A stretch of DNA of 64,000 bases from Alphaproteobacteria bacterium (GTDB taxonomy: Bacteria; Pseudomonadota; Alphaproteobacteria; UBA2966; CAIVPW01): the NCBI GenBank assembly GCA_947481575.1, contig CANKGV010000012.1, positions 1 through 64,000 of the forward strand, read 5' to 3'. This document shows positions 3,001 to 64,000 of the stretch, piece by piece. The notes under the pieces were generated by a model. The model was given only the letters and a program-made list of their open reading frames with translations, made no database searches and was not told where the DNA came from. Position numbers and translations under genes: made by a program. Position 1 is the stretch's first letter, and every line of letters begins with the position of its first letter.

Positions 3001-4340
3001 GCCAGCCGCGTTGGTCACGGTAACGGTCGGCGCATCGGCGACCGGTGACACCGCAACGTTCAGCGTCGCGACCGTCGCAGCGGAACCGCCGGCCGCCTCG
3101 GTCGCAGTCGCGGTAACCGTCAGGTCAAAAGCTGCATCCGAGTTAGGCGGCGGCGTAATGGTGAGCCCCGTCAACTGATCCGCAGACAGGGTCCAGGAAC
3201 CATCGCCGTTGTCCGTACCGGCGGACAGCACCGCGCCGGCAGGCACACCACTGATCGTGACGCTGGAGATCGATTCGGAACCATCCACGTCGTTCAGCGA
3301 CGCCGCGATGTTCAGCGGAATATCGCTGTCCTCGGCCCCGGTGGCGTTGGTAACCGTCACCGTCGGCGCATCGGCAACCGGCGACACAGCAACATTCAGT
3401 GTCGCGACCGTGGTGGCCGAGCCGCCCGTGGCTTCGGTCGAGGTTGCGGAAACCGTCAGATCGAATGCCACATCGGAATTCACCGGCGGGGTGATTGTCA
3501 GACCGCTCAGCTGTTGCGGCGTCAGGGTCCACGAGCCGTCGCCGTTGTCCGTGCCGGCAGAAAGTGCTGCGCCGGCAGGAACTCCGCTGATGATCACACT
3601 GGTGATCGATTCGGAACCGTCAACGTCGTTCAGCACCGCGCCGATGTTCAGCGCGATGTCGCTGTCCTCGGCGCCAGATGCGGCCGTCACCGTTACGGTC
3701 GGCACGTCGGCCACCGCATTGATCGCCACACTCAAAGTGGCAACGGTCGTGGCAGAGCCGCCAGCGGCCTCGCTCGACGTCGCCGACACCGTGAGGTTGA
3801 AGGCACCGCTGGTGTTGGGAGCAGGCGTGATCGTAAGGCCATTCAATTGCCCCGGCGTCAGCGTCCACGCGCCGTTGCCGTTATCCGTGCCGGCCGAGAG
3901 CACCGCGCCGGCGGGCACGCCGGCAATGGTGACGCTGGTGATGGATTCCGACCCATCGGCGTCGGTCAGCGCCGCGCCGAGGTTCAAGGCGATCGGCGTG
4001 TCTTCGTCGCCGGTGACATTCGTGACCGTCACGGTCGGCGCATCGGCAACCGCCGAGACGGCAACAGCCAGGGTGGTCGTAGAGGTGGCCGTCATCCCGC
4101 TCGACGATTCGGTCGAGGTAGCGGAAACGGTCAGGTCGAAGTCGGCATCGGAATTGGCGGCGGGCGTAATGGTCAGGCCAGCCAACTGCGCGGGAGTCAG
4201 CGTCCAAGTGCCGTCGCCGTTGTTTGTCCCGGCCGAAAGAACCGCGCCGCTGGGAACGCCCGCAATCGTGACGTTCGAGATGGACTCAGAGCCGTCGGTG
4301 TCCGTCAGGGCCGCGCTGATGTTGAGCGCGATCGAATGAT
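1..4340 (-). repeat. Tandem ~336-bp (112-aa) coding repeats; 13 anchor occurrences visible
   Basis: Anchor 'g[a/c/g]gtcca' (codons of the WTLTP motif) at 162, 501, 837, 1173, 1509, 1845, 2181, 2517, 2853, 3189, 3525, 3861, 4200: spacing 336 bp except two of 339 bp. Confidence 0.93.
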
Positions 4341-57689: not shown

Positions 57690-58583
57690 CTACTGACGTC
57701 CGATGTACCGGAGCATGCCACGCTGCGGGTCGTATCCGATTGCCGCCGCTACGAAAAATACGATCGTGAAGCCGGCGACAACCGCCAGGGACACGAGGTT
57801 CATCTTGCCGTAGGCGGCCCACCGGATCAGTTCGATCGCATGGGTGTAGGGGTTCACCTGGGCCAAGTAATAAATGTAGTTCGCGCCGGATTCCCGGAGT
57901 TTCCACAGCGGATATAGCGCCGGAGAAATGAAGAACATTGGGAAGATCACGAAGTTCATCGTCCCCGCAAAGTTCTCCAACTGACGGATGTAGACCGACA
58001 ACAGCAGTCCCAGGGACGACAACATCAATCCGCCCGCCGCCAACGGGAGCAGAATGTAGACCCACCCCGACCACGGAATTCGGGCGGCCAGCGAGGTCGG
58101 TACGAAGAAGCTAAACGCCCAAGCAATCAGCAGGAAGGCATAGGCCTGCAGAATCGACAGGAACGTTGCGGCCAGGAGCTTGAACAACAGCAGCACCCAG
58201 CGCGGCAACGGCGCCGTGAGCAGCAGCCGCATTACCCCCATCTCGCGGTCGTAGACCATCGAGAGCGACGACTGCATGCCGTAGAACAGCAGAACGATCC
58301 CGAGCAGCCCAGGGATAATGTACTCCTGGTACGTCGTGTAGGTTTCGTACGGGGGAACGATCGAAACGCCGAGCAGCGAGCGGAACCCAGCGGCGAATAC
58401 GACCAGCCACAGCAGGGGCCGCACCAGGGCCGAGGCCCAACGGCCTTTTTGCCGGATGAACTTTCCGGTCTCGCGGCCGGAGATGGCCTTCAGCGCGTAC
58501 AGCAGATGCATCGGCGCAGAGACGCGCCGCACCGTTGTTACGTGCTCCACGCCCCTAGGCGCGGCAACTGCTTGTAAGCTCAC
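57690..58583 (-). CDS. ABC-2 type permease, PQQ-dependent-catabolism-associated (PedC/LutF-like)
   Basis: LLYALKAISGRETGKFIRQKGRWASALVRPLLWLVVFAAGFRSLLGVSIVPPYETYTTYQEYIIPGLLGIVLLFYGMQSSLSMVYDREMGVMRLLLTAPLPRW. Confidence 0.85.
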   Translation of the reverse strand: MSLQAVAAPRGVEHVTTVRRVSAPMHLLYALKAISGRETGKFIRQKGRWASALVRPLLWLVVFAAGFRSLLGVSIVPPYETYTTYQEYIIPGLLGIVLLFYGMQSSLSMVYDREMGVMRLLLTAPLPRWVLLLFKLLAATFLSILQAYAFLLIAWAFSFFVPTSLAARIPWSGWVYILLPLAAGGLMLSSLGLLLSVYIRQLENFAGTMNFVIFPMFFISPALYPLWKLRESGANYIYYLAQVNPYTHAIELIRWAAYGKMNLVSLAVVAGFTIVFFVAAAIGYDPQRGMLRYIGRQ

Positions 58584-58630: not shown

Positions 58631-59860
58631 CTAGAACTTGCAAGTCGTTTCCGGCTTATCGACGCCCAACGTATCAAGTTCGTTTGTCGCATGTTGGAAT
58701 TTCGAGGACGGCATGCGCGCGAGCACGGCGTTGTACGTTTCGACGTACAAGTTCATGCGCAACTGATTGTCCCACGGCCGGTAATTCAGTTGCGACCCGT
58801 GGTATCCATCGAACCGCAACTGGTCGCTGAGCAAGTAGTCGCGCACCGGCTGGAAGTCGAAAGTCTTGGCGCGCTCCGCGGCCTGGACGATCGAGCGAAT
58901 CGCCGACCAAGCGGACCAATCCGGCCCATACATGAAGCGTCCGGCGGCGCGATCGAAGCGTGACGACAACTGCGGTGCACCCTGGCGCTCCCATGCCCAG
59001 GACCACGGCGACGCAACAAGGCCGGTAGTACCGACCACCGGGCGGGGTTTCTGCGTGCCGTAAGGGACATAGCGACCGAACTCACCGTCCTCGTCGACGA
59101 TCCAAGTAACGTCGTAGTCTCGACTGGTCGCGGTCATCAACGCAACGTTGTTCGCTTCGCGTGCGCGCGGGTCGTTGGACAAGACGAACGGCTTCTTGTC
59201 CACGATGGTGCCACCCATGCGCTTGGCAGAGCGCTGCACGGCGGCCGCAAATTTTGCATCTTCGGGCAGAGGGCCCTGCAGCAGAAGGATGCGTGTCCAG
59301 TTCATGCCGGCCAAGTACTGCATGACACCGTCCGCCAGCATGTTGTAGCTGGCCGCGGTGTGGGCAAGATTGCGAGCGCATGACGCCCCGCGCAAACTGT
59401 CGTCCGGATCGGCGACGTTTACAAACAGCACGGTTGGATCTTTGATCGCCGAGGTCAGAGCCTTGGTGACCTCGGTCGGCACGTCGAGCAGGAAGAACCG
59501 GACGTCGTTGTCCTTGCGTTGCTGCTGGACCCAGGCAATCAGGTCTTTCGCGTCGGCGCCTGCCCGCACCACCAGTTCATAGTGCAGGTGCGTGAAGCGC
59601 CCATTGGCATTGGAATCGGCAACGCCAAGTTCAGCGCCCGCGCGCGGCCGGTAGTTGGGGACCGCAGGAATACGCGCATAGACGTAGGCACGGTCGTACT
59701 TGGGATCGTCTTCGATCTCCAGGTAACCGATCTTGAGCGTAGGCTCCGCAGCTGCAGCAGCCAGAGCGGGCGGCACGTTCTGCGGCCAAGCCGCTACGCC
59801 AAGCGTAAGAGCGCCCGCCACAACGAGCAGCGCCATTCCCAATCGTCCGATCCGCACCAT
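58631..59860 (-). CDS. ABC transporter substrate-binding protein of the PQQ-dependent alcohol dehydrogenase system (LutA-like)
   Basis: LKIGYLEIEDDPKYDRAYVYARIPAVPNYRPRAGAELGVADSNANGRFTHLHYELVVRAG...DVTWIVDEDGEFGRYVPYGTQKPRPVVGTTGL. Confidence 0.85.
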   Translation of the reverse strand: MVRIGRLGMALLVVAGALTLGVAAWPQNVPPALAAAAAEPTLKIGYLEIEDDPKYDRAYVYARIPAVPNYRPRAGAELGVADSNANGRFTHLHYELVVRAGADAKDLIAWVQQQRKDNDVRFFLLDVPTEVTKALTSAIKDPTVLFVNVADPDDSLRGASCARNLAHTAASYNMLADGVMQYLAGMNWTRILLLQGPLPEDAKFAAAVQRSAKRMGGTIVDKKPFVLSNDPRAREANNVALMTATSRDYDVTWIVDEDGEFGRYVPYGTQKPRPVVGTTGLVASPWSWAWERQGAPQLSSRFDRAAGRFMYGPDWSAWSAIRSIVQAAERAKTFDFQPVRDYLLSDQLRFDGYHGSQLNYRPWDNQLRMNLYVETYNAVLARMPSSKFQHATNELDTLGVDKPETTCKF

Positions 59861-59881: not shown

Positions 59882-60946
59882 CTAGTTGCCGAACGCGGAG
59901 ACGCCCGCAAAGTCGTCGACCAACGGGATGTACGGCACCCGGCCGGTCGGCACCGACTTGATCGTCTTCTTGTTCGCGACGTCGATGATCGTGATGTCAT
60001 CCGACAGCGAGTTGGCGATGAACAACTTCGTCTGATCGTTGGAAAGCGCAGCACCCCACGGGCGCGAGCCCGCCAGCACGTAGTCGGTGATCTTCCGGGT
60101 CTTCACATCGACGTACGCGATGTGGTTCGCGCGGCCAAGCGTGATGTATGCCTGCGTGCCTGCCTTGTTCAGCTCAAGTCCTACTGGGGTCACGTCCACC
60201 TGGCGGAACCCCGGCGGCAAGAAGTTGATGACCTGCATCGTCTTGAACGTCGCGGCGTCCACAATATAGACCTCGCCGGACAACTCGCAGGTGATCCACA
60301 ATTCCTTGCGGTCCGGCGTCATGCGGACGCGCCGCGGACGCGTGCCGACCACAAGGTTGTCAATAATGTTGCCGGTGGCGACATCGATCCAGTGGATCAT
60401 GTCGGCCACTTCCGACGTGAGGTAGACCGACTTTCCGTCCGGGGCGACGAAGACGCCTTCCGGCTCGGCGCCGCTTGGAACCTCGTGCTGCAGGACTTTG
60501 TCGCTGGTGTTGATGATCCACATCGAGGAGTCCTCCTCGTTGGCGATGAACATCAACTTCTCGTCCGGACTCAGGGCCAGAACTTCGGGGCTCGGTCCGG
60601 TCGGGATTCCGCCCACACGCTTCAACAGCGCAACGTCGATCAGGTCCACCACGTCCTCATCGCCGCACGCAACGTACAAGGTGGTATGCGCCTGATTGAA
60701 CGCCATGCCACGAGGGCGGCGCGAAGTCTTGATGCGCTTCACCTCGGTGTAATTGACTGGATCGAGAACGACGACTTCGTGGCTCTTCTCGTGACTAACG
60801 AACACAAGGCCCGTGCCGACCGCCGACGCAGGGGGCACGCCAATCAACGGCAACGCCGCGGTAGCGGCGCCCGCCGCAGCACCCTTCAGCAGCGAGCGCC
60901 GATCAAATCCAGATTGCTCTTCGGACGTACGGTTTCGGTTATCCAT
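59882..60946 (-). CDS. PQQ-dependent-catabolism-associated YVTN beta-propeller protein
   Basis: TGLVFVSHEKSHEVVVLDPVNYTEVKRIKTSRRPRGMAFNQAHTTLYVACGDEDVVDLIDVALLKRVGGIPTGPSPEVLALSPDEKLMFIANEEDS. Confidence 0.88.
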   Translation of the reverse strand: MDNRNRTSEEQSGFDRRSLLKGAAAGAATAALPLIGVPPASAVGTGLVFVSHEKSHEVVVLDPVNYTEVKRIKTSRRPRGMAFNQAHTTLYVACGDEDVVDLIDVALLKRVGGIPTGPSPEVLALSPDEKLMFIANEEDSSMWIINTSDKVLQHEVPSGAEPEGVFVAPDGKSVYLTSEVADMIHWIDVATGNIIDNLVVGTRPRRVRMTPDRKELWITCELSGEVYIVDAATFKTMQVINFLPPGFRQVDVTPVGLELNKAGTQAYITLGRANHIAYVDVKTRKITDYVLAGSRPWGAALSNDQTKLFIANSLSDDITIIDVANKKTIKSVPTGRVPYIPLVDDFAGVSAFGN

Positions 60947-60993: not shown

Positions 60994-61425
60994 TTATCGA
61001 ACGATGAACTTGCCCTTCATTCCGCGCTCTTCCATGCCATCGACCCAGAAGTCGTAGTCGCCGGGCCGGATGGGCACGAAAAAGATCAGCATCTCACCTT
61101 CGTCGTCGAATTCAACGTCGTGCAGCGCGAGGGGGTGGATCTCGAGGTCGCCGATCTTGATTTCATTGATGAAGGTGTTGCGCCAGAAGTCGTCGGCGCG
61201 GAACTGAAATTCCTCGGTCCCGACGTTCTTGAGCGTGAGCCGGTAGTACTTCCCCGTCTCCAGCTTGAACTCGTATTTCGAGAACGTGAGATCGTCCTTC
61301 ATGATGATCTCGATGTCGTCGGGGCGAGCAGCCAAATTGCCCGCCGCCAGCGCCGACGCCGCACCGACCACGAGCGCCACGGCAACCAGAAGCAGGCGCA
61401 CCGCACCGACGAACAACAACCTCAT
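60994..61425 (-). CDS. Small exported beta-sandwich (cupredoxin-like) protein, paralogue A
   Basis: MRLLFVGAVRLLLVAVALVVGAASALAA signal; IIMKDDLTFSKYEFKLETGKYYRLTLKNVGTEEFQFRADDFWRNTFINEIKIGDLEIHPLALHDVEFDDEGEMLIFFVPIRPGDYDFWVDGMEERGMKGKFIVR. ATG 61425 chosen: 61491 would lie upstream of the predicted sigma-54 start site. Confidence 0.82.
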   Translation of the reverse strand: MRLLFVGAVRLLLVAVALVVGAASALAAGNLAARPDDIEIIMKDDLTFSKYEFKLETGKYYRLTLKNVGTEEFQFRADDFWRNTFINEIKIGDLEIHPLALHDVEFDDEGEMLIFFVPIRPGDYDFWVDGMEERGMKGKFIVR

Positions 61426-61497
61426 CCCCACACTCCAGTCCCCTGTCGCGAGGCGTCTTTTACGGCGCCCAATTGCCTTTTCCAATAGCACGTATAG

Positions 61498-61512
61498 GCA
61501 AACACCGTGCCA
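61498..61512 (-). promoter_or_regulatory. Sigma-54 (-24/-12) promoter for the 61425 -> 57690 operon
   Basis: Minus strand TGGCAC-GGTGT-TTGC; -12 element ends 73 nt before ATG 61425. Confidence 0.8.
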
Positions 61513-61605: not shown

Positions 61606-61625
61606 GGTGGCTGTTGGGAGCCACC
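61606..61625. promoter_or_regulatory. Palindromic putative enhancer/UAS copy 1
   Basis: GGTGGCT-gttggg-AGCCACC; centre 110.5 bp upstream of the sigma-54 box centre. Confidence 0.65.
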
Positions 61626-61684
61626 GGGTCCGGCCAACACGGGCTGCAGCGGGGCGGTTCCCGCGTCCGCAACCGCAGGCGCAG

Positions 61685-62107
61685 CTATTTCACGGTCATC
61701 GTGCCGGTCAGGTTCTTGCTGGGCAGCGTGAAGGTGTAGCTGCCGGCGCGGACCACGACGAAATAGATGTTCATCTGGCCGCCGCCATCAAACTCGAGAT
61801 AGACACCCGGGCCGGGCGTGTGGATTTCCATGTCGCCGACCGTGATCTGGTTGATGAATGCGTTCTGGAACAAGTCCGGCGCGCGCAGCACGAGGTTGTC
61901 GCACTTTGCATCGCACTTCACGGCCCAGTTGTAGTACTTGCCGGTCTCCAAATCGAACTTGTCGCCCGTCAGCTTGAAGTCAGCGCTGATGGTGGTGGAG
62001 ATCGCCGTCGCGCCGGTCACCAAAGTCCCAGCGGCCTGGGCGGGTGCGGCCACAGCAGCCGCCATGGCGAGCGCACCTAATGCACAGAGAGTAATCTTCG
62101 TGTTCAT
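61685..62107 (-). CDS. Small exported beta-sandwich protein, paralogue B
   Basis: MNTKITLCALGALAMAAAVAAPAQAAG signal; FDLETGKYYNWAVKCDAKCDNLVLRAPDLFQNAFINQITVGDMEIHTPGPGVYLEFDGGGQMNIYFVVVRAGSYTFTLPSKNLTGTMTVK; shares LETGKYY and FINxIxxGDxEIH with paralogue A. Confidence 0.85.
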   Translation of the reverse strand: MNTKITLCALGALAMAAAVAAPAQAAGTLVTGATAISTTISADFKLTGDKFDLETGKYYNWAVKCDAKCDNLVLRAPDLFQNAFINQITVGDMEIHTPGPGVYLEFDGGGQMNIYFVVVRAGSYTFTLPSKNLTGTMTVK

Positions 62108-62195
62108 CGGATTCCCCTAATTCCAACCGCGCACGATGCGCCAGTTGTCCCTCTGTCGGCAGCGCTGCCACCGACCGGATTCGGAAAATCCTATG

Positions 62196-62210
62196 GCAAC
62201 TATTGTGCCA
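62196..62210 (-). promoter_or_regulatory. Sigma-54 promoter for paralogue B
   Basis: Minus strand TGGCAC-AATAG-TTGC; 89 nt before ATG 62107. Confidence 0.8.
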
Positions 62211-62293
62211 TGCTCAACTTGACTACGGAATCCTTGGCGCCCCATGAGCGGCGGGCCTGCTTGAGCAGAGATCGGCCCCTGGCCGGACACTCC

Positions 62294-62313
62294 GGTGGCT
62301 GCTGGGAGCCACC
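62294..62313. promoter_or_regulatory. Palindromic putative enhancer/UAS copy 2
   Basis: GGTGGCT-gctggg-AGCCACC; centre 100.5 bp upstream of the sigma-54 box centre. Confidence 0.65.
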
Positions 62314-62375
62314 ACATCTGCGGGGAGCAGCCGAGCCACAGCCTGCCGGGGGCTTCAGACGCCTCTGAAACGAAC

Positions 62376-62406
62376 CGGCCGCCCGGGGAGGACGGGCGGC
62401 CGGTCC
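62376..62406 (-). terminator. Hairpin downstream of the small lipoprotein gene
   Basis: ACCGGCCGCCC-ggggaggac-GGGCGGCCGGT. Confidence 0.6.
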
Positions 62407-62425
62407 GCGTGCCTCGCTGCCGCAG

Positions 62426-62611
62426 CTACATCGAGCCGGCAGCGTCGCTGGATGCGGTGGGATCGGCCATGACCGCAGGATCGCCTTTGATGAACGGTGC
62501 AGTCATGCTGCACGCAGCCAAAACAATGCAGCCAGCAACCAGCAGGCTGATGCGTGCGAGGGCTGGGACGCTGGCGGACGGCTGAGGGGACGAACTGGCT
62601 GACCTGTGCAT
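62426..62611 (-). CDS. Small lipoprotein (61 aa)
   Basis: MHRSASSSPQPSASVPALARISLLVAGCIVLAACSMTAPFIKGDPAVMADPTASSDAAGSM; lipobox LAAC; preceded by a sigma-54-type promoter. Confidence 0.6.
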   Translation of the reverse strand: MHRSASSSPQPSASVPALARISLLVAGCIVLAACSMTAPFIKGDPAVMADPTASSDAAGSM

Positions 62612-62692
62612 GCGAATCTCCAATGTTACTTCGGACGCAGGGCCGTCGGGTCCCCACGGGGCGGACACCTGAATCCGCGCGCAACAGGCATC

Positions 62693-62707
62693 GCAACCGC
62701 CGTGCCA
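62693..62707 (-). promoter_or_regulatory. Sigma-54 promoter for the small lipoprotein gene
   Basis: Minus strand TGGCAC-GGCGG-TTGC; 82 nt before ATG 62611. Confidence 0.75.
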
Positions 62708-62796: not shown

Positions 62797-64000
62797 TCAG
62801 GCGTTGCCCCGGCCGAAGTCAGTCGGGCGTATGCCGTACTTCTCCATGCGGTATCGCAGTGCCATCCGAGTTATTCCCAACCTGCGCGCCGCCTCGGACG
62901 TGTTGCCTCCGGTATTGGCGAGGGCCGCAGCAATCATCTCTTGTTCCGCGCCGGCAAGGGTCGGCAGCGCTGCTTCCGCGCCGCGGCCTTGCGCTGCCCG
63001 TGAAGCAGCCGCAGGCGCAGCGAGGCGCAGCGATTGAGCGCTGATTCCGCTGCTGTCGGAGAGCAGGACCGACCGCTCGATTACGTTCTTTAGTTCGCGG
63101 ACGTTGCCCGGCCACTCGTACGCCGCAAGCGCCGCGATCGCGTCATCGTGCAGCGCCGGCGCAGCGCGGCCATAGGCGCGGGCCGTGACATCCAGGAAAT
63201 GCCGCGCCAACAAGGGTATGTCCTGCCGGCAGCTACGGAGGGGAGGCAGAGACACCGTTAGAACGTTGAGCCGGAAGTATAGGTCGTCGCGGAACTCGCC
63301 GCGGCTCACCATGGCCGACAGATTGCGATTGGTCGCCGCCACAAACCGCACCGGCACCGGCACCTCCCGGGTACTACCGACCCGGCGCAATTGCCTGCGC
63401 TCCAAGACATTCAGCAGCTTGGCCTGCAATGGCAGCGGCAACTCGCCGATCTCGTCAAGAAACGCGGTCCCGTCTTCCGCGGCCTCAATCAATCCGGCGC
63501 GGGAAACGTGAGCGCTCGTGAACGCGCCGCGCACATGGCCGAATAACTCGGCCTCCATCATTTCCTTGGGCAAGGCAGTGCAATCGATATGGACGAACGG
63601 CCGGTCGCTGCGCGACGAAAGGCGGTGAAGCATCCGGGCGGCGACATCCTTGCCGGTACCCGTCTCGCCAAGAATCAGGACCGTGGGCGGTGAGTCGCCG
63701 GCAATTGCAGCCATTGCTTCGATTTGGCGGCGCGCCTCGCGTAGCGCGGAACTTTCGCCGATCAATGCAGCGCCGTCGCCCGCTCGGCTCTCGCGGGCTT
63801 GCGACAGGTTGAGGCGAGAGCGCAGGCGCGCGGACCGCATAACTTTATCGACGGTGACCAGCAGTTCGTCGAGATCGATCGGCTTCTTCAAGTAGTCGGC
63901 CGCGCCGCGCTTCATCGCTTGAACGGCCTGACCCACGTCGCCATACGCCGTCATTACCAGGACGGTGGGCGCACCTTCGGAACCGTCTGCGATTTCGGAC
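62797..64000 (-). CDS. NtrC-family sigma-54-dependent response regulator (N-terminus beyond the right edge)
   Basis: REC C-terminal half (SEIADGSEGAPTVLVMTAYGDVGQAVQAMKRGAADYLKKPIDLDEL); AAA+ LGETGTGKDVAARMLH, ELFGHVRGAFTSAHVSRAGLIEAAEDGTAFLDEIGELPL; C-terminal Fis-type HTH NTGGNTSEAARRLGITRMALRYRMEKYGI. Confidence 0.94.
   Translation of the reverse strand, partial: SEIADGSEGAPTVLVMTAYGDVGQAVQAMKRGAADYLKKPIDLDELLVTVDKVMRSARLRSRLNLSQARESRAGDGAALIGESSALREARRQIEAMAAIAGDSPPTVLILGETGTGKDVAARMLHRLSSRSDRPFVHIDCTALPKEMMEAELFGHVRGAFTSAHVSRAGLIEAAEDGTAFLDEIGELPLPLQAKLLNVLERRQLRRVGSTREVPVPVRFVAATNRNLSAMVSRGEFRDDLYFRLNVLTVSLPPLRSCRQDIPLLARHFLDVTARAYGRAAPALHDDAIAALAAYEWPGNVRELKNVIERSVLLSDSSGISAQSLRLAAPAAASRAAQGRGAEAALPTLAGAEQEMIAAALANTGGNTSEAARRLGITRMALRYRMEKYGIRPTDFGRGNA

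Follow-up and report, generated by a model that had tools for sequence, protein, structure and literature searches.

Passages of PMC12997753 and the title of PMC6839425 identify PedA1A2BC as the lanthanide transporter of Pseudomonas putida, and PMC7391723 assigns lanthanum transport to the Lut system of M. extorquens. The passages of PMC12997753 also place the two-component system PedS2/PedR2 in a cluster with PedA1A2BC. Both PedS2/PedR2 and MxaY/MxaB of Methylomicrobium buryatense serve in lanthanide-responsive regulation. Like the locus described here, they couple two-component control with PQQ dehydrogenase systems, and the corresponding passages of PMC12997753 and PMC5018670 mention no sigma-54 control for either. 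PedR2 is a LuxR-type regulator, whereas the regulator at our locus is of the NtrC type. Literature searches on sigma-54 (RpoN) together with lanthanide or PQQ regulation turned up no description of the present system. The regulator shares with NtrC, ZraR, AtoC and CbrB the receiver/AAA+/Fis-HTH architecture, a partner histidine kinase, palindromic upstream activating sequences (UASs) ~70-120 bp upstream of -24/-12 promoters, and helical phasing. It differs from these NtrC-family activators in its predicted site, GGTGGYT-N6-ARCCACC, in its GAFTSA loop and in its predicted PQQ/ABC-linked targets.

The window, that is, the whole stretch of DNA analyzed, comprises the first 64,000 nucleotides of a contig from an alphaproteobacterial genome of 2.45 Mb. 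The gene order of the locus, all leftward, is PedB-like ATPase, histidine kinase, NtrC-type response regulator, small lipoprotein, cup1, cup2, PedA2-like beta-propeller, PedA1-like binding protein, PedC-like permease and ApbE. The features are listed below in window coordinates unless contig positions are given; distances between UASs and boxes run from centre to centre and are computed with a 16-bp definition of the box.

Contig positions 65811-66578, beyond the window: PedB-like ATPase (TIGR03864, above cut-off)
Contig positions 64251-65750, beyond the window: partner histidine kinase (domain matches to HAMP, HisKA and HATPase)
62797..64000 and on to contig position 64254, minus strand: NtrC-type response regulator, proposed UAS binder (receiver PF00072, AAA+ sigma-54 activator domain PF00158, Fis-type HTH PF02954)
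62426-62668, minus strand: small lipoprotein ORF
62294..62313, no strand: putative UAS of the cup1 promoter, GGTGGCT-N6-AGCCACC, GGTGGCTGCTGGGAGCCACC; orthologous UAS in G003, G004, G005, G006 and G007
62195..62210, minus strand: sigma-54 box of cup1, TGGCACAATAGTTGCC, 101 bp from the cup1 UAS
61685..62107, minus strand: cup1, secreted cupredoxin-like protein of 140 aa, 40% identical to cup2; predicted regulon member
61606..61625, no strand: putative UAS of the cup2 promoter, GGTGGCT-N6-AGCCACC, GGTGGCTGTTGGGAGCCACC; orthologous UAS in G001 (degenerate), G002, G003, G004 and G006
61497..61512, minus strand: sigma-54 box of cup2, TGGCACGGTGTTTGCC, 111 bp from the cup2 UAS
60994..61425, minus strand: cup2, secreted cupredoxin-fold protein of 143 aa (PF13473); predicted regulon member
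59882..60946, minus strand: PedA2-like PQQ-associated beta-propeller protein (TIGR03866, above cut-off), downstream of cup2 in the same direction
58631..59860, minus strand: PedA1-like ABC substrate-binding protein (TIGR03863, 393.1 bits, slightly below the cut-off of 413.6)
57690..58583, minus strand: PedC-like ABC permease (TIGR03861, above cut-off)

All four subunit types of a PQQ-linked transporter of the PedA1A2BC type are thus encoded at the locus. Compared with PedA1A2BC and LutABEF, the equivalents of PedA2, PedB and PedC score above the curated cut-offs and that of PedA1 just below; the genome adds a second, more divergent copy on contig 22, and lanthanide transport is here a prediction from the genes. 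A Pfam search gave no match to cup1 itself. The AlphaFold2 model of cup2 has a cupredoxin fold (mean pLDDT 82.6), and its Foldseek matches are cupredoxins, with 4hcf at the top. Among eight cup2 orthologues no His, Cys or Met is invariant, so the usual copper ligands seem to have been lost; several Glu/Asp residues are invariant.

The two palindromes before cup1 and cup2 are, in our judgment, very probably enhancer-type UASs of the adjacent NtrC-type response regulator (gene at 62797..>64000). The original prediction described them at 61606-61625 and 62294-62313, centred 110.5 and 100.5 bp from their sigma-54 boxes, with associated coding genes that are strongly diverged. The coordinates are correct, our distances of 111 and 101 bp differ from the earlier values by definition only, leaving the 10-bp difference intact, and the two cup paralogues are indeed only ~40% identical. 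Both boxes carry GG and GC 10 bases apart in a TGGCAC-N5-TTGC context, as in -24/-12 promoters. The window contains no further match to GGTGGCT-N6-AGCCACC, even with up to two mismatches; as a control of this search, at least two matches to the palindrome occurred in 4 of 100 shuffles. Across the 2.45 Mb genome the exact sequence occurs at these two places only, and contig 22 carries a third copy with one mismatch, GGTGGCTGACAGAAACCACC. The palindrome pair and part of the cup coding sequence share a start-to-start spacing of 688 bp in the repeat analysis of the window, so that promoter and gene look like the products of one old tandem duplication.

The site recurs across the family. We detected 17 exact matches to GGTGGYT-N6-ARCCACC in eight family genomes, against ~0.5 expected from base composition (three each in G000, the genome containing the window, and in G003, G004 and G005, two each in G002 and G006, and one in G007). 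All 17 have a correctly oriented sigma-54 box (TGGCA...TTGC) 68-122 bp downstream; 13 of these boxes show at most two mismatches to TGGCACGNNNNTTGCW and four show three. By comparison, six sites that have one mismatch and lie at unrelated positions (L080, L084-L088) all lack a sigma-54 box within 200 bp. Four classes of promoter carry the sites: cup1; cup2; the propeller gene of the second PQQ-linked beta-propeller/ABC operon (contig 22 of the own genome, G003, G004, G005 and G006); and a gene pair encoding a cold-shock-domain and a pentapeptide-repeat protein (G002, G005 and G006, with weaker sites in G001, G003 and G004). G002 has one further site with one mismatch, its box at 111 bp. In G001, which represents the most distant of the sampled genera, a single half-site, TATGGTTGATATAAACCACC, remains at cup2, again with a box at 111 bp. 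A point against the UAS reading is that no good sigma-54 box for cup2 was found in G005. In the cold-shock promoter of the own genome, on contig 16, the site is GGTGGTTGGCGCAACCACC (L207, 3244-3262); its loop is 5 bp long, and a perfect box, TGGCACGGACGTTGCT (3166-3181), lies 79.5 bp away. This site was missed by the pattern searches and found by reading the sequence; the list of regulon members rests on such searches, which sites with other loop lengths can escape. The pairing of a cold-shock-domain protein with a large pentapeptide-repeat protein behind a sigma-54 box and UAS is itself conserved in the family (contig 16 of G000 in L207, L015, L081 and L083).

In alignments of orthologous promoters, the islands of conservation are the UAS and the box. 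As expected of a UAS or enhancer, the inverted repeat lies upstream of a sigma-54 box and is kept across orthologous promoters. The original prediction had proposed selection on the DNA element itself, and had held that an absence from orthologous promoters, or an occurrence mainly as an intergenic repeat, would count against it. The palindrome is present in the orthologous promoters of other family genomes and is kept in several genera whose flanking sequences have diverged beyond alignment. It is not a general intergenic repeat: each of the exact family copies is followed, after 68-122 bp, by a sigma-54 box directed away from the palindrome. Comparative evidence gives the interpretation in the original prediction strong support.

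The distances between sites and boxes are phased. For 25 UAS-to-box distances the best period is ~10.6 bp (R=0.79), with R=0.78 at 10.5 bp. A set of 12 de-replicated distances gives P ~4e-4 against uniform or jittered distances; this set was chosen by eye and treats related genomes as partly independent, and since they are not independent the exact P is not to be leaned on. Paralogous promoters have shifted by whole turns in different lineages (91, 99-102, 111 and 120-122 bp), as DNA looping would require. The spacings thus place UAS and box on one helix face, which is consistent with looping.

The own genome encodes four full sigma-54 activator domains. Three belong to FlbD, NtrC and NtrX, all above the curated NCBIfam cut-offs, and the fourth to the regulator at the locus. 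This regulator has the receiver, AAA+ sigma-54 activator and Fis-type HTH domains of the NtrC family, and stays well below every NCBIfam equivalog cut-off (its best score is 349 bits, against the 714 set for AtoC); by score it is not an orthologue of NtrC, NtrX, FlbD, AtoC or ZraR. The gene for sigma-54, rpoN, is present in all eight family genomes (PF04552). The order kinase, regulator, cupredoxin(s), propeller, binding protein, permease is found in seven of them (the own genome, G001 and G003-G007), with a single cupredoxin in G001, and the contig of G002 covers the cupredoxin-to-permease part only. The family regulators are 63-72% identical, and the sigma-54 contact loop reads GAFTSA in all seven instead of the canonical GAFTGA, which counts as a point against the proposed mechanism. 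Relatives outside the family have GAFTGA (L195, L198) or GAFTNA/GAFTHA, and a literature search for GAFTSA found nothing.

With NtrC, NtrX and FlbD accounted for, the adjacent response regulator is left as the candidate binder, in agreement with the original prediction; this assignment by elimination and linkage draws on the conserved locus order and on the regulator being the sole own activator that is none of those three. The palindromes could instead be UASs for NtrC, NtrX or FlbD. NtrC/NtrX-like pairs do occur in all family genomes, and FlbD too in the own genome; G004, G005 and G006 each have three strong activator-domain matches, namely the locus regulator and a tandem pair ~4 kb apart that resembles the own NtrC/NtrX, a pair identified by name in G000 only. 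We nevertheless regard binding by one of these activators as highly improbable: the site adjoins the regulator gene in a conserved order, its core turns up again next to orthologues of the regulator in other orders and in another class, and it seems unlike the NtrC site, TGCACY-N5-GGTGCA.

The recurrence of the core was observed around kinase orthologues with an adjacent NtrC-type regulator, which occur in other alphaproteobacteria and in gammaproteobacteria. The exact core TGGYT-N6-ARCCA is present in L130, L133, L165 and L195, and four times in L121, no farther than ~320 bp from the start of the kinase or the stop of the regulator; a one-mismatch core lies near the kinase-regulator pair in L176, L190, L192 and L198. 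No exact core was found in 32 control kinase flanks without the regulator (34.6 kb). On the other side, three outgroup loci that have the regulator (L120, L183 and L197) showed no core site, which speaks against the reading of the palindromes as UASs for this regulator. Methylophilaceae kinase orthologues have no NtrC-type regulator next to them and no exact core in their flanks. A composite pattern of UAS core plus box, searched in 395 genomes of the class, gave 8 matches in the three family genomes included in the search and 5, all single, in the other 392; the reversed pattern gave none. Chance was judged to account for some of the outgroup boxes near core sites, such as those that L121 and L195 have inside coding sequence. 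The near-core site of L190 and L192 has a sigma-54 box 112 bp away. In these gammaproteobacterial relatives the near-core sites are paired (L190 6206-6247, L192 797-838), at 112 and 134 bp from the box, and precede genes of secreted proteins whose C-termini are PEP-CTERM-like, not PQQ genes.

A reading of the palindromes as transcription terminators or RNA hairpins that belong to the preceding genes and stand before the next promoter by chance can appeal to the two copies in the window, each of which lies between same-strand genes and could fold into a 7-bp stem with a 6-nt loop. They lack a T tract, however, and a terminator scan calls neither. The copies at the cold-shock operon stand between divergently transcribed genes (G005 in L015, G006 in L081), and sigma-54 boxes follow at constrained, phased distances. 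The inner bases of the arms do not covary among the 17 sites (T/G 5, T/A 5, C/G 4, C/A 3), and this independent variation of the half-sites argues against an RNA stem. The scan, the absent covariation and the divergent placement rule this reading out for practical purposes, leaving it a very small probability. A functionless remnant of the cup1/cup2 tandem duplication, or a dispersed intergenic repeat, would account for the 688-bp spacing common to promoter and gene, but is just as hard to credit and was rejected on the site's conservation in unrelated promoters, given that two unrelated operons on other contigs have the same site in front and that it outlasted the alignable flanks in several genera.

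From the observed site, box, spacing, phasing, conservation, regulator linkage and rpoN presence, we infer binding, phosphorylation, looping and transcription in the following form. The adjacent membrane histidine kinase would phosphorylate the regulator, which would oligomerize on GGTGGYT-N6-ARCCACC. Looping of the DNA would then bring the AAA+ ring to RNA polymerase-sigma-54 at the -24/-12 promoter ~70-120 bp downstream, and ATP hydrolysis would open the promoter. The predicted targets in the own genome are cup1, cup2, the second PQQ-linked beta-propeller/ABC operon (contig 22) and the cold-shock/pentapeptide-repeat operon (contig 16); transcription of cup2 possibly reads through into PedA2-PedA1-PedC. 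The UAS-bearing promoters probably switch on alcohol-oxidation genes and possibly genes for rare-earth-metal uptake. Together these elements would constitute a two-component sigma-54 regulon for which the searched literature gave no description; such a regulon would be ordinary in mechanism, new in its biology and clearly delimited. Sequence alone thus yields a small candidate sigma-54 regulon, complete with activator, kinase, DNA site and promoters and made up of four units in a genome of 2.45 Mb. The hosts are uncultured aquatic alphaproteobacteria with ~20 matches to the PQQ-dehydrogenase family. The own genome has 20 matches to TIGR03075 (PQQ alcohol dehydrogenase), an unusually large set, of which some are fragments and none is above the curated cut-off.

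A metal- or alcohol-related signal is plausible given the PedA1A2BC-type locus and the neighbours of the kinase-regulator pair in relatives, where it adjoins a TonB-dependent receptor gene (L195, L133) or is divergent from PedB/PedC-like genes (L176, from the culturable Methylohalomonas lacus). By analogy with the known systems, our guess is that the kinase senses a lanthanide, PQQ or alcohol. Should the signal be a lanthanide, a sigma-54-dependent route would join the few known lanthanide-responsive regulators, with a directly testable site.

In the regulators of three alphaproteobacterial MAG loci (L121, L130 and L133), the loop that contacts sigma-54 is either missing or unrecognizable. The core sites of these loci lie close to start codons or directly behind the regulator gene, with no convincing sigma-54 box. 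The kept core site in regulators without the loop fits a regulator that left sigma-54 and retained its DNA site, as we infer from these three loci, and such regulators could offer a natural series for enhancer-type activators becoming ordinary ones. More tentatively, and with the odds against it, the whole may be a lanthanide- (or PQQ/alcohol-) responsive two-component system controlling a PedA1A2BC/Lut-like uptake locus via sigma-54, in which some members of the clade lost the contact loop and kept the same DNA site, now shifted close to the start codon; enhancer control would there have given way to ordinary promoter-proximal regulation.

Two further elements of the window flank the small lipoprotein ORF. 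A third good sigma-54 box, TGGCACGGCGGTTGCG, precedes it at 62692-62707 on the minus strand, with no UAS palindrome upstream in the window at up to two mismatches. Just past the lipoprotein gene, at 62371-62407, lies a strong GC-rich inverted repeat without a T tract, composed of 15-nt arms and a 7-nt loop.
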